NCBI GenBank assembly: GCA_021776785.1
Contig: JAJFFF010000052.1
Span: 186,001 to 250,000 of the forward strand
Source: Planctomycetota bacterium
GTDB lineage: Bacteria > Planctomycetota > PLA2
DNA length: 64,000 nt
Direction: 5' to 3'
The notes below the pieces were generated by a model that was not told where the DNA came from, did not search any database, and saw nothing but the letters and a program-made list of their open reading frames with translations. Position numbers and translations under genes: made by a program. Below are positions 8,128 to 14,010 of the stretch, in pieces; the stretch's first letter is position 1; every line of letters begins with the position of its first letter.

Positions 8128-9414
8128 CTAGCGCAACGCGGACTTAAGCCACGCTGCGAACTCGGTCGGGCGCAGGAAGCCGACGTGGCGCGCGATCTCG
8201 GCCCCGCGGTTGTCCACGATGACGTACGTCGGCGTCCCGTCCACGCGATACTTCACCGTGTCCGCCTCGCCCTGCTTGAATCCGATCTTGGCGCAGACGA
8301 AGCGCTTGGTGAGTTGGAACACTTCGCGATCGCGCATGGTCATCGTGTTCATCGCGTGGCAATGCGGACAGGTCCGCTGCGTGAAATCGAGCAGAACGCG
8401 GTTCGGCGTCTGATCCTTGGCGGCAATCTCGATCGCGTAGTCGGCGCCTTTGCCGACGATCCAATCGACCTTTTTGTCGGCGGCGATCTTGGGTCGCATG
8501 GGATCGAGGTTGCGCGCGCGTTCGGCGGGATCTTGTCGCGCCTTGTAGATCTTTTCGAAGTACTGGCGCTCGGTTTCTTTTGCCGGCGTGACGCTGAGCG
8601 TGAGCTTACGCCCGGCCGCGTCGATCCCCTTCACCTCGACCGTCCATTTCTGGTCGGCGCTCCACGACGGGAAGATCATCTTGCGCGTCGCGTCGCGGCT
8701 GAGCATCTGTTCGCGCGGAACCGAGGCCGCACGAACCACCCAACTGTCACCGGTCGAGAATTGACCGTCGCTGTCGTCGTCGATGACCGCGATCCGGAAC
8801 TCCCCGTCGCCGAGTTTGAGGGAACCCTCGCGCCACCCGTCACGCTCCAACATGACATGCTTCGGCGGCGCGGCTTTGCTGCCGGGCAAGACGAAGTAGA
8901 CAACGCACGGATACGTCTCCTTCTCGTTTTTGCCGGCGATCTTGTAGGGCAACTCCAAGGACACGCCCAAGAACTCGATCAGTTTGGACTCGTTCGTCCA
9001 CAGCGTGCGAATACGTGCGGGAATCGGATCGCCATCGTTGGTCAGATCGAGGTCGCGGTTCTTGTCCAAGTACAAGAGATCGTGATAGAGCGCGCCTTTG
9101 GACTTGTCGAGCGCGCCGTAAAACGGAACGCCTTCGGTCTCGCCGAGCGCGACGCGGAAAAACGCCGGGTCGTCGCAGGCAAACTTCGGGACCTCGAACA
9201 AAAAGCGCGGCACGGCCATCTCGACCGCCATGCGACGCGGGCTTGAGTACCCCAGGCGAACCTTCTCCGTGGGGCTCGCGCTCTTGAGCTCGACGACGAT
9301 CTCAGCGGGCTCGGCGGGCTCCGCGATCGCCTCCTCGCCCTCGGCGAGCGCACGCTGACCCAATCCGGGAATGGTCAAAACAACGAGACTGAGCCAAAAA
9401 TGCCACTGACGCAT
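8128..9414 (-). CDS. Exported thioredoxin-like protein
   Basis: Signal peptide MRQWHFWLSLVVLTIPGLGQRALA; C-terminal TCPHCHAMNTMTM...GTPTYVIVDNRGAEIARHVGF thioredoxin fold motifs. Confidence 0.8.
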   Translation of the reverse strand: MRQWHFWLSLVVLTIPGLGQRALAEGEEAIAEPAEPAEIVVELKSASPTEKVRLGYSSPRRMAVEMAVPRFLFEVPKFACDDPAFFRVALGETEGVPFYGALDKSKGALYHDLLYLDKNRDLDLTNDGDPIPARIRTLWTNESKLIEFLGVSLELPYKIAGKNEKETYPCVVYFVLPGSKAAPPKHVMLERDGWREGSLKLGDGEFRIAVIDDDSDGQFSTGDSWVVRAASVPREQMLSRDATRKMIFPSWSADQKWTVEVKGIDAAGRKLTLSVTPAKETERQYFEKIYKARQDPAERARNLDPMRPKIAADKKVDWIVGKGADYAIEIAAKDQTPNRVLLDFTQRTCPHCHAMNTMTMRDREVFQLTKRFVCAKIGFKQGEADTVKYRVDGTPTYVIVDNRGAEIARHVGFLRPTEFAAWLKSALR

Positions 9415-9562: not shown

Positions 9563-11857
9563 GTGACGTCGATTCCGAAGGCCTCCCTCCCGCTCGGCGA
9601 GGTGATCGAGCGCCTCCGCTCCGATCCGCGCTACGCCGAAAACGTCGTTACTTGGCGGACATTTCCCGCCAAGGAGCCGGTGTGGACGGACTATCCGGAT
9701 TGGGTGCACAACGACTTAAAGCGCACGTTACAAGACTATCGATTTGAGCGCCTGTACACCCATCAGCGCCAGGCCGCGGATCTGGCGCATGCGGGCAAGC
9801 ACGCCTGCGTGGTGACGCCGACGGCGTCCGGGAAGACGCTTTGCTACAACCTGCCCGTTTTGGACGCCATGGTGCGGAAGACGGGCGCGCGCGCGTTGTA
9901 TCTGTTTCCGACCAAGGCGCTGTCGCAGGACCAAGTCGCTGAGGTCAACGCGATTGTCGAGCGGCTACCCCAAGGGATCGCGGCGTACACGTATGACGGG
10001 GACACGCCGTCTTCTACGCGCGCCGTGTTGCGGCAAACCGGCGAAATCATCGTCACCAACCCGTACATGCTCCATTCGGGCATCCTGCCCAACCACGTCA
10101 AGTGGACGGACCTGTTCCAAGGGCTCCAATACATCGTCGTGGACGAACTGCACGCGTACCGGGGCGTGTTTGGGAGCCACGTCGCCAACGTCTTTCGCCG
10201 TTTGCGGCGGATCGCGCGCCACTACGGCGCGGACCCGGTATTTCTTACGTGCTCCGCGACGATTCGCAATCCGGCCGAGCACGCCAAAGCGCTCTTGGGC
10301 GTAGACGTCGAACTGGTCACGGAGTCCGGCGCGCCGCGTGGCGAGAAGCACTTCGCGCTTTACAACCCGCCGGTTGTCAACCGCGCTCTCGGGTTGCGGG
10401 CGAACGCGCTCGAAGAAGTGCGGCGCGTCTCGTCGCTGTTTGCGGGCGGTGCGGTGCAGTCGATTTACTTCGTGCGCTCGCGTCAGATGGTCGAGGTGTT
10501 GACGAAATATCTCAAGGACCGCAACAAGGAGCGCGGGTTTCCGACCGAGTCGATCTGTGCTTATCGCGGCGGGTACCTGCCGAAGTTGCGCCGGACCATC
10601 GAGCGCGGCCTACGCGAAGGGGACATTCACGAAGTGGTGTCTACCAATGCGCTGGAGTTGGGCGTCGATATCGGGTCGCTCGACGTGGCCGTGTTGACGG
10701 GTTATCCGGGGACGATTGCATCGATGATGCAGCAGGCGGGGCGTGCTGGACGGCGCAACTCGATGAGCCTGGCGATCATGGTGTGTCGCTCCACAGCACT
10801 CGATCAGTACGTGGCGACGCATCCCGAGTACGTGTTGGAGCGTCCGCAGGAAGGCGCGGTCATCGACGCGGACAACCTGATCATTTTTGTGAACCACCTG
10901 AAGTGTGCGGCGTTTGAGCTGCCGTTCGACGAAGGCGTGTTGTTTGGCGACAACCCGATCACGACCGACGTGCTGGATTATCTCGCGCGCGAGGCGCGCA
11001 TCCTGCACAAGGCGGGCGGGCGCTACCACTGGATGGCGGAAGCGTATCCGGCCGAAGACATCAGCTTGTCGGCGGCCGACATCGATTATTTCGTCGTGAT
11101 CGACGAGGACAAAAACATCGTCATGGCGGAGGTGGATCGACCCGACGCGATGACGCAGATTCATGAGGGCGCGATCTACGGGTTCCAGGGGGAGCAGTTC
11201 CTGATCACGCGGTTGGAGTACGAAGATCGCCGCGCGTACGCCAAGCGCATCAATCCGGACTACTTCACGGAAGTCGAGGTCGACACCGACGTGCGTGTGA
11301 TCCACGCGGATGCGGAAACGACGGGTCCCGGCTACCGCCTGTGGCGCGGTGAGGTCGGCGTCAAGACGATCGCGACGGTGTTTAAGAAGATCAAGTTTTA
11401 CACGCGCGAAAACGTCGGTGCGGGAGATATCGAGCTGCCCGCCGAAGAGATGGACACCACGGCCGTGTGGATGCTGATGGATCAACCCGTCGCCTTGGAA
11501 CTGGGCCTCACGGATCCGCGGTTCGCGGGCGGCTGGAGCGGCGTCGGCTATTTGTTGCAGCACCTGTTGCCGGTCTACCTCGGTTGCAGCGTCGGCGACG
11601 TGCGGAAAAAGAGCGAGATCAAGAGCGCGGAGTTTGATTGTCCGTCGCTCTTCTTGGTCGATAACGTTCCGGGTGGCGTGGGGCTGGCGGAAAAGATCTT
11701 CGAACTGTGGCCCAAGCTCATGCACAGCGCGCGTGAGATGTTGGATTCGTGCGCGTGCGCTGCCGGTTGTCCGGCGTGCATTGGGCCGGCGCGGCATGTC
11801 GGATCGGTGGGCAAGGAAGTCGCCCGCCGCATACTAAAACGATGCTCCGCTCCCTAG
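9563..11857 (+). CDS. mrfA: DEAD/DEAH-box helicase with DUF1998-type C-terminus, MrfA/YprA-like
   Basis: PTASGKTLCYNLP, VDELHAYRGVFGSH, STNALELGVDIGSLD, QQAGRAGRR; C-terminal Cys cluster DSCACAAGCPACIGP. Confidence 0.85.
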   Translation: MTSIPKASLPLGEVIERLRSDPRYAENVVTWRTFPAKEPVWTDYPDWVHNDLKRTLQDYRFERLYTHQRQAADLAHAGKHACVVTPTASGKTLCYNLPVLDAMVRKTGARALYLFPTKALSQDQVAEVNAIVERLPQGIAAYTYDGDTPSSTRAVLRQTGEIIVTNPYMLHSGILPNHVKWTDLFQGLQYIVVDELHAYRGVFGSHVANVFRRLRRIARHYGADPVFLTCSATIRNPAEHAKALLGVDVELVTESGAPRGEKHFALYNPPVVNRALGLRANALEEVRRVSSLFAGGAVQSIYFVRSRQMVEVLTKYLKDRNKERGFPTESICAYRGGYLPKLRRTIERGLREGDIHEVVSTNALELGVDIGSLDVAVLTGYPGTIASMMQQAGRAGRRNSMSLAIMVCRSTALDQYVATHPEYVLERPQEGAVIDADNLIIFVNHLKCAAFELPFDEGVLFGDNPITTDVLDYLAREARILHKAGGRYHWMAEAYPAEDISLSAADIDYFVVIDEDKNIVMAEVDRPDAMTQIHEGAIYGFQGEQFLITRLEYEDRRAYAKRINPDYFTEVEVDTDVRVIHADAETTGPGYRLWRGEVGVKTIATVFKKIKFYTRENVGAGDIELPAEEMDTTAVWMLMDQPVALELGLTDPRFAGGWSGVGYLLQHLLPVYLGCSVGDVRKKSEIKSAEFDCPSLFLVDNVPGGVGLAEKIFELWPKLMHSAREMLDSCACAAGCPACIGPARHVGSVGKEVARRILKRCSAP

Positions 11858-12573
11858 CACTCTTGGTGAGCGGCTTCGTCGCCGCGTATCTGCCGCTGAT
11901 GATGCGGTGGCCGGACCTTCCCGTGTGGGTACCGCTCGCGTTACTCGTGCTTGGGTTGGCCGGCGCGATCACGTGCACGTTTAAGAAGCGCGGCGAGCCC
12001 GGGCGGTGGCGTCTCCCCGTCACGGTGATCCTCGGTTTGGCCGTCGCGTTCCATGTCGTTTGGTTAGTCAGCCTGTCGTCTTATGGTTCGCCCGCGTTCT
12101 CAGCGCCGGCGGTCGGGGCGACGGCGCCCGACGTGGTCGGTGTGCGCGTGCGCGACGGAGCGCCGTTTCAGTTGGCTGCACAGCGCGAGTACGAAACGCT
12201 ACTCGTGTTTTTTCGCGGTCCATGGTGACCGTACTGCGTACGCGAGCTCGTGGAGCTCGCCGACAAACGGGATGCCTGGGCGCGGCTCGGTGTGCGCGTC
12301 ATCGCGTTCTGCATCGATGACCCCGACGACCTCAAAGAGCTCCAAGACGAGCTTGGCTTCGGCGTGACCTTGATCGCCGATCCCACGGCCGCGGCCACCA
12401 AGGCGTTTGGGATGCTCGATCCCAAGCCGTTTCCGGACCGCATCCAGGCGCGGGCGGGCCTGTTTTGGTTGAACACGAGCCGGGAGGTGCGGGCCCGCTG
12501 GCTGCCGGACCGCTATCGCGCCCGCCCCGATCTCGACGAGGTCCGGGCCACGGTGCGTGCGGGGCTGGAGTAG
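11842..12573 (+). CDS. Membrane-anchored AhpC/TSA-type redoxin, predicted selenoprotein (Sec129, TGA 12226-12228)
   Basis: Two ORF-track pieces (..12228 and 12250..12573) are in one frame: ...LLVFFRGPW-U-PYCVRELVELADKRDAWARLGVRVIAFCIDDPDDLKELQDELGFGVTLIADP...; three N-terminal hydrophobic segments; TGA replaces the first Cys of the WCPYC motif. Confidence 0.85.
12242..12260 (+). promoter_or_regulatory. Candidate bacterial SECIS hairpin
   Basis: GCGAGCTC-GTG-GAGCTCGC, perfect 8-bp stem, 3-nt loop starting with G; 21 nt between UGA and the loop. Confidence 0.75.
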
Positions 12574-12810
12574 CGCCAGTGCCGGTCGGAGCGGGCGACC
12601 CACGGCCATGCCATTTCCCGGCGGCTTGGGGTTTTTGGGGCGGGTTCGTGGGCGTGGGCGGCCTTCGACGCGCTTCGACAGGATCTTGTAGGGCGCGCGT
12701 CATGACCCCCAAGGGGTAGTGGTCGCGCCCGCTAACCTGTTGATCCGCCCATGCTTACGTCGAGCCGGGTGCACGCAGGGCGTCCCCGCGATCCGTAGGA
12801 TGACCGCGGG

Positions 12811-14010
12811 ATGCGGCTCCACGAAAAACTCCGTCGAATAGCGGCCCCGGCCGCGGTCCGGGTGGCCAAGCCGGCGGTCGCGGTGGCGTTGCCTGGAGCG
12901 CACACCGACAGCGTGTTGGGCAAGGTTTGGGTCCGTCGCGTGGCGCTCCCGTTGACCCATCGCCATGGACGGTTCACGCTGGCGGAGATCGCCGCGCAGT
13001 CTCTTGCGCCGTTAGCCGAGATCGCGCGGGACCCAAATCTTTTACAGTTCGACTGGAAGCGGGCGATCTTTTTTGACACCGAGACCACATCGCTCGGCGG
13101 CGGCGTCGGGACGTATGTGTTTTTGCTTGGTGCGGCGTATTTCGAAAAGGATGCGTTTGTCGTCGAGCAGTTTTTTTTGGACGACGTCACTGAAGAGCGC
13201 GCGCTGCTTCACATGATCAACGAGCGCTTCGCGCGGTTCGACGTTGCCGTTTCGTTTCACGGGAAGCATTTCGATGCGCCGCGGTTGACCGGTCGTCTTG
13301 TGTTTCATCGGATGAAACTGGCGTTGCCCGCTTCACACCTCGACCTTTGCGTCGTGGGTCGGAGCCTGTATCGCGGCGCATTCGAGAACTGCCGCTTGCA
13401 GACGTTCGAGAAAGAAATCGTTGGATTTGAGCGGCAAGACGACTTGCCGGGAGCGGATTGTCCGCGCGCGTTCTTCGATCACTTGCAAGGCGATAGCACG
13501 CTGATCCCGCGCGTGTTCGAACACAACCTCTACGATGTTTTGACCATGCCCGCTGTGGCGCACCGGTTTGCGCAGTCGGTCGCGGAGCCGGACCACCCGG
13601 TTGTGCGCGCCAACCTTGGTTCGTTTTACGAGTCGGTGGGCCGGCAGCGTGAGGCGCGTGAAAACTACGAAGAGGCGCTGCTTGGATTGCGCACGACCAA
13701 CCATGCGCACCTACCGCGCGCTCTGGAGAGGTTGGCGTTGCTGGAGCGCCGGGCGGGGCGTCACGCCGTCTCGGCACAACTGCTGCTGGAGCGGTGCGCC
13801 ATCCACCCCCACGCGCTCCAACCGCTGGAAGATCTGGCCAAGTACTACGAACACCGTGCGCGTGATCTGTCCATGGCGCTGGCGACGACGATGGACGCGC
13901 GCTCGCGGCTGCTCACCGGGAAGATCGAAGTCGATCGTCACACCCGCGCGCGTCACCTCGCAGCCTTGGACCACCGTCGACAGCGTCTGGAGCGGCGTGA
14001 CGATGCGTGA
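12811..14010 (+). CDS. mrfB: RNase H-like exonuclease with C-terminal TPR-like region, MrfB/YprB-like
   Basis: FFDTETTSLGGGVGTYVFLLGAAYF, SFHGKHFDAPRL, HNLYDVLTMPAVAHRF; follows the MrfA-like helicase. Confidence 0.8.
   Translation: MRLHEKLRRIAAPAAVRVAKPAVAVALPGAHTDSVLGKVWVRRVALPLTHRHGRFTLAEIAAQSLAPLAEIARDPNLLQFDWKRAIFFDTETTSLGGGVGTYVFLLGAAYFEKDAFVVEQFFLDDVTEERALLHMINERFARFDVAVSFHGKHFDAPRLTGRLVFHRMKLALPASHLDLCVVGRSLYRGAFENCRLQTFEKEIVGFERQDDLPGADCPRAFFDHLQGDSTLIPRVFEHNLYDVLTMPAVAHRFAQSVAEPDHPVVRANLGSFYESVGRQREARENYEEALLGLRTTNHAHLPRALERLALLERRAGRHAVSAQLLLERCAIHPHALQPLEDLAKYYEHRARDLSMALATTMDARSRLLTGKIEVDRHTRARHLAALDHRRQRLERRDDA

Follow-up and report, generated by a model that had tools for sequence, protein, structure and literature searches.

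An open reading frame in this planctomycetal genome is broken by a TGA codon at the active site of a redoxin, and the question raised by the locus is whether that codon ends the gene or specifies selenocysteine (Sec). The original prediction, made for the window (the whole 64 kb stretch of DNA analysed here), was of an unannotated selenoprotein. Our analysis supports that reading, which survived every one of its named refutations that could be tested: the gene at 11842–12573 very probably encodes a selenoprotein in which the UGA at codon 129 is read as Sec. Features of the window described below lie on the forward strand except where the reverse strand is named.

A single reading frame spans the TGA codon

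The TGA at 12226–12228 is codon 129 of a frame that is open from an ATG at 11842 to a TAG at 12571–12573. The expectation of one 243-codon coding sequence (11842–12573) with a single in-frame UGA, the putative Sec129 of a W-U-P-Y-C motif, therefore holds. The ATG overlaps the 3' end of the upstream helicase gene by 16 nt. GC content by codon position is alike on either side of the TGA (0.68/0.51/0.78 before and 0.73/0.47/0.86 after), and, among the TGAs in the window that are flanked by coding-like sequence, only 12226–12228 proved to lie inside a recognisable protein.

The UGA falls in the active site of a redoxin domain with a predicted membrane anchor

Residues 91–200 of the translated product match PF00578 (AhpC-TSA; score 64.8 bits, cut-off 26; E 9.2e-18), with a further match to PF08534 (Redoxin; E 4.2e-14), whereas no NCBIfam redoxin cut-off was reached by any of the five members tested. 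In the AlphaFold2 model (input: the window protein and the proteins of related loci; mean pLDDT 83), the domain adopts a thioredoxin fold in which a helix at 130–141 starts directly after residue 129. Three membrane helices are predicted at residues 2–22, 29–48 and 60–80 by both hydropathy and AlphaFold2, forming an N-terminal anchor (11845–12081). The original prediction mentioned neither this anchor nor the MrfA/MrfB neighbourhood. At least two hydrophobic N-terminal segments are seen in most relatives, and a single one in L116 and in L120; L073 (the L021 gene) is truncated by the end of its contig. Helices 2 and 3 are joined by a positively charged loop, from which the positive-inside rule predicts that the redoxin domain (12112–12573; Pfam and Foldseek matches) should be located outside the inner membrane.

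The active-site motif is FFRGPW-U-PYC, of which U129-P-Y-C132 is a UxxC motif. Cys132 (12235–12237), the proposed resolving residue, is invariant in the alignments of relatives. The best relatives in the PDB are Bcp/PrxQ-like, namely 2ywn by sequence and Bcp4 by fold (3hjp; Foldseek, TMt 0.86). The original prediction had placed Sec at the catalytic cysteine of the redoxin signature; its position within the W-U-P-Y-C active site stands, but the details require refinement, since alignment to the classical peroxiredoxin 2ywn puts Sec at the conserved Thr and Cys132 at the peroxidatic Cys. The peroxidatic motif PxxxTxxC (or TxxU) is absent, its Thr position being taken by Sec within R-G-x-W-U-P-x-C. 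With these two residues so placed, the site is closer to a WCxxC thiol-disulfide centre than to the active site of a classical peroxiredoxin, and for this reason we favour a predicted activity of thiol-disulfide exchange, or of peroxide reduction via a selenenylsulfide, in which a thioredoxin-like protein would serve as reductant. The protein could instead be a selenoprotein that acts as a true peroxiredoxin (i.e. a peroxidase rather than a thiol-disulfide oxidoreductase), an alternative which concerns the chemistry only, is compatible with the Sec reading, and to which we give appreciable weight while considering it the less probable of the two. Its attractions are the AhpC-TSA/Redoxin matches, Bcp4 as the best fold match and the location of Cys132 in the place of the peroxidatic residue; set against these are the loss of PxxxTxxC, the thioredoxin-like WUxxC created by Sec at the Thr position, and the naming of known UxxC members as Prx-like thiol:disulfide oxidoreductases (PMC13188914).

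The TGA is conserved within the family and across the phylum

A search of the taxonomic order recovered four orthologues from the same family (36–48% protein identity), all four of which have TGA at the aligned codon and a frame that runs on for 105–115 codons beyond it. Pairwise amino acid identity across the five family genomes is 43% before the TGA and 47% after it, with third codon positions varying most on both sides. Conserved coding sequence thus lies on either side of an in-frame UGA, as expected of a bacterial selenoprotein gene. When 392 genomes of the phylum were searched with a profile of the five family members, there were 42 matches at E≤1e-20, 38 of which contain a TGA. Among the 25 best further phylum loci outside the family, the TGA is exactly at the active-site position in 24; the exception (L126) has a different architecture and TGC. 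Since the same codon is TGA in 5/5 family genomes and in 24/25 further members of the phylum, chance is ruled out as an explanation. It had been asked whether homologues carry Cys at residue 129, and distant homologues from other phyla do (L045–L054), as do L126 and L077.

The distribution of SelB follows that of the TGA: it is present in 26 of the 28 genomes in which a TGA version was verified and in 4 of the 12 whose match lacks the TGA (Fisher p 2e-4). Extending the latter group by eight genomes that have no match at all changes the comparison to 26/28 against 8/20 (Fisher p 2e-4). The two TGA genomes without a SelB match are 77% and 84% complete.

These observations weigh heavily against the possibility that the TGA is a true stop, which would make the gene a pseudogene or leave a truncated three-helix membrane peptide with a relict 3' half. 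Standard ORF calling without knowledge of Sec does break the gene at 12228, as had been foreseen. However, across five genomes the 3' half is as well conserved as the 5' half and varies most at third positions, the frame continues in all of the close relatives rather than stopping at the TGA, the 29 checked loci all have TGA at the active-site codon rather than scattered stops, and truncation would delete Cys132 together with most of the redoxin fold. We regard a true stop as very improbable. An assembly or sequencing error that made TGA from a TGC or TGT Cys codon is less probable still: although single-base errors occur in metagenome assemblies, the same TGA recurs in these 29 loci, each in a different assembled genome and most of them followed by a SECIS-like hairpin, a recurrence that such an error does not explain.

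A SECIS-like hairpin follows the UGA

A bacterial SECIS-like hairpin, GCGAGCTC-GTG-GAGCTCGC, is found at 12242–12260, with a perfect 8-bp stem and a GUG loop that starts 21 nt after the UGA, exactly as originally described. No other inverted repeat of 8 bp around a 3-nt loop occurs in the region 11500–12900, and the whole 64 kb has five such hairpins in all. The hairpin alone has a folding energy of -12.8 kcal/mol, and a 45-nt fold one of -18.4 kcal/mol (z -2.2). Published rules for bSECIS elements specify an apical loop of 3–9 nt with G in the first two positions, a stem of 4–16 bp, a distance of 16–37 nt from the UGA and an MFE of -7.5 or below (PMC13188914), and the loop, stem, spacing and energy of the window hairpin all fall within these ranges.

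Covariation was analysed in 12 sequences from relatives, which were picked for equal loop spacing, a selection that favours the result. Within this set the seven stem pairs are 98.8% standard, compared with 25–41% when the register is slid by 1–3 columns, and 15 cells show two-sided changes in the stem, where shuffles give 6.5. Column 33, the synonymous third position of a Leu codon, varies together with column 19, the first position of a Glu/Gln codon: G accompanies C in 8 sequences and C accompanies G in 4. Synonymous recoding of the TGA loci is a fairer test. For the window sequence alone, 13% of recodings fold into a hairpin of equal stability (p 0.13), so the significance of the hairpin comes only from many relatives together; the combined value for 34 TGA loci is p 2e-9, the sequences not being independent of one another. 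A hairpin of -7.5 kcal/mol or below is present in 24 of these 34 loci and lacking in 10, and two Cys homologues in the recoding test gave p 0.57 and 0.63. An Rfam search of the region returned no RNA family matching the hairpin, the only hit being a chance miRNA match.

A sister family in the same order has a different, lipoprotein-like redoxin with a FYRGKWUPYC-type Sec (L023, L026, L027, L031, L037 and L041), and in several of these the close hairpin is replaced by a strong one, CGGCAG-GUC-CUGCCG, located 36 nt downstream. Other relatives within the order (L038, L043, L033 and L042) have in-frame TGAs at redox sites, in TPG-U peroxiredoxins and in W-U-PPC and TW-U-GPC proteins, which suggests a sizeable selenoproteome.

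The genome encodes the Sec insertion machinery

The original prediction would have been undermined by a lack of SelA, SelB or tRNA-Sec, and proposed that these be looked for together with SelD. All four are present in the genome to which the window belongs (5.0 Mb in size and 93% complete): tRNA-Sec (70.8 bits; anticodon tca by ARAGORN), SelA (495 bits), SelD (365 bits) and SelB (287 bits, or 311 bits with the C-terminal part), with selB, selA and selD adjacent on C27:129483–133766. Reading of the TGA as Trp or Cys through a changed code or natural suppression has a negligible probability, since, although such codes would leave the frame open, TGA is the ordinary stop of 6 out of 10 neighbouring genes and the code is therefore not reassigned, homologues have Cys rather than Trp, and a tRNA-Sec with anticodon tca accompanies SelA, SelB and SelD.

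SelD, too, is a selenoprotein in this genome, with a Sec-UGA of its own (GGUAAKLG; C27:132870, L063), and a hairpin, UCCCAG-GUC-CUGGGA, is located 33 nt after its UGA. A second selenoprotein candidate, thioredoxin-like with the motif FTGDW-U-PAC (G000:C45:93495, minus strand; L064, L001), is found approximately 340 bp upstream of tRNA-Sec; a short scan found no simple SECIS-like hairpin for this candidate. A genome-wide scan with the pattern TGGTGANNNNNNTGY was too unspecific, giving 98 matches versus 56 in a reversed control, but it nonetheless flagged a second candidate.

The redoxin gene separates an MrfA/MrfB-like pair in one family

The upstream neighbour (9563–11857) is an MrfA/YprA-like DEAD/DEAH helicase with an MrfA Zn-binding domain (PF00270, PF09369), and the downstream neighbour (12811–14010) is an RNase_H_2 exonuclease resembling MrfB/YprB (PF13482). 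In Bacillus subtilis, the MrfA helicase and the MrfB exonuclease act in mitomycin repair (PMC11194089). The helicase is in the same place in the window genome and three relatives, the contig of the fourth ending before it, and the exonuclease is found in the same order in all five family genomes. Wherever the arrangement is visible within the family, the Sec-redoxin splits this pair. A divergent neighbour on the reverse strand (8128–9414) has a C-terminal thioredoxin-like CPHC domain (PF13098) and occupies the same place in 4/5 genomes, the fifth contig being cut; it is a possible candidate for the redox partner. The gene order of the family is Trx-like protein, MrfA-like helicase, Sec-redoxin, RNase_H_2 exonuclease, biotin ligase, histidine kinase and response regulator, the first two being hidden by a contig end in one genome.

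This arrangement raises the idea of a role for the redoxin in MrfA/MrfB repair. In f2, the sister family, the two genes of the pair are adjacent and leave too little room for a redoxin in the loci showing both, and the phylum-wide redoxins have no helicase or exonuclease within ~1.5 kb. Both observations weaken the idea, and a DNA-repair role for the Sec-redoxin is unsupported. Given that the f2 pair occurs without a redoxin, and that elsewhere the redoxin is not beside the pair, the placement is a family-level trait. Searches for plasmid and phage families found nothing close. As for taxonomic markers, the nearby ECF sigma factor has a Planctomycetaceae subfamily model as its best match, at a score under the cut-off, and the partial 16S differs by 1 mismatch from the general EUB338 target and by 2 from the Planctomycetes PLA46 target; from these markers an origin in Planctomycetota is probable.

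A model for Sec insertion and catalysis

The frame, the conservation of the UGA, the hairpin, the domain and the Sec machinery can be read directly in the sequence, and from them we infer how Sec insertion, membrane orientation, chemistry and partner may fit together. SelB with Sec-tRNA-Sec (anticodon UCA) would recognise the stem-loop just 3' of the UGA, and Sec would be inserted at codon 129 in translation. The three-helix membrane protein most likely exposes its Prx-like redoxin domain on the outer side of the inner membrane, where Sec129-Pro-Tyr-Cys132 is probably a thiol-disulfide redox centre. The selenolate would attack a disulfide or peroxide, Cys132 would resolve the intermediate as a selenenylsulfide, and a thioredoxin-like partner would reduce this bond.

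Relationship to known selenoproteins and redoxins

Catalogues of selenoproteins have included UxxC Prx-like members for years, as 'Prx-like 1' in the GOS survey (PMC2398784) and as 'Prx-like thiol:disulfide oxidoreductase' and 'Redoxin family protein' (PMC13188914 Table 1), and selenoproteins have been reported in Planctomycetes before (PMC4807772). The window protein resembles the Prx-like thiol:disulfide oxidoreductase selenoproteins (representative WP_010940744.1) in its PF00578 domain, Sec in UxxC, bacterial origin and SECIS inside the gene, but differs in having three N-terminal membrane helices. Its best NCBIfam match is to SelL/SelL-related proteins (NF040769), with which it shares a redoxin fold and a selenium redox motif; however, it scores 33.8 bits against a cut-off of 120, and its motif is UxxC whereas that of SelL is UxxU. 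N-terminal membrane attachment, a WCxxC-type site and a probably extracytoplasmic location are features in common with ResA/TlpA (NF002854), but those proteins have Cys rather than Sec and a single anchor, and the window protein reaches 23.9 bits against a cut-off of 170. Finally, the fold is shared with the classical peroxiredoxins PrxQ/Bcp and with Sec-Prx (PrxU, TxxU), from which the window protein departs in having its Sec three residues earlier and no TxxC/TxxU.

The apparent mid-gene stop almost certainly encodes the active-site Sec of a membrane-anchored redox enzyme. The UxxC Prx-like selenoproteins are already known and the window gene adds a well-supported member to them, while the phylum-wide, three-helix-anchored and nearly all-Sec subfamily appears to be undescribed; no description of the three-helix form was found in the literature searched, the coverage of which was incomplete. 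On balance, we lean towards a distinct, uncurated subfamily spread across the phylum, consisting of three-helix inner-membrane proteins with an extracytoplasmic Prx-like domain, nearly always with Sec (UxxC) in full-length members, that carry out a selenium-based redox step in the envelope and that in one family have become fixed inside the MrfA–MrfB DNA-repair gene pair.

Reading through the TGA restores a gene that would otherwise be split, or labelled a pseudogene, by standard annotation, and the locus provides firm evidence for the use of Sec in this lineage. The related loci make up a large, nearly all-Sec subfamily of membrane-anchored redoxins for which no curated model was found. A profile of this subfamily would recover many truncated genes throughout the phylum, and would permit tests of why the envelope keeps Sec over Cys.
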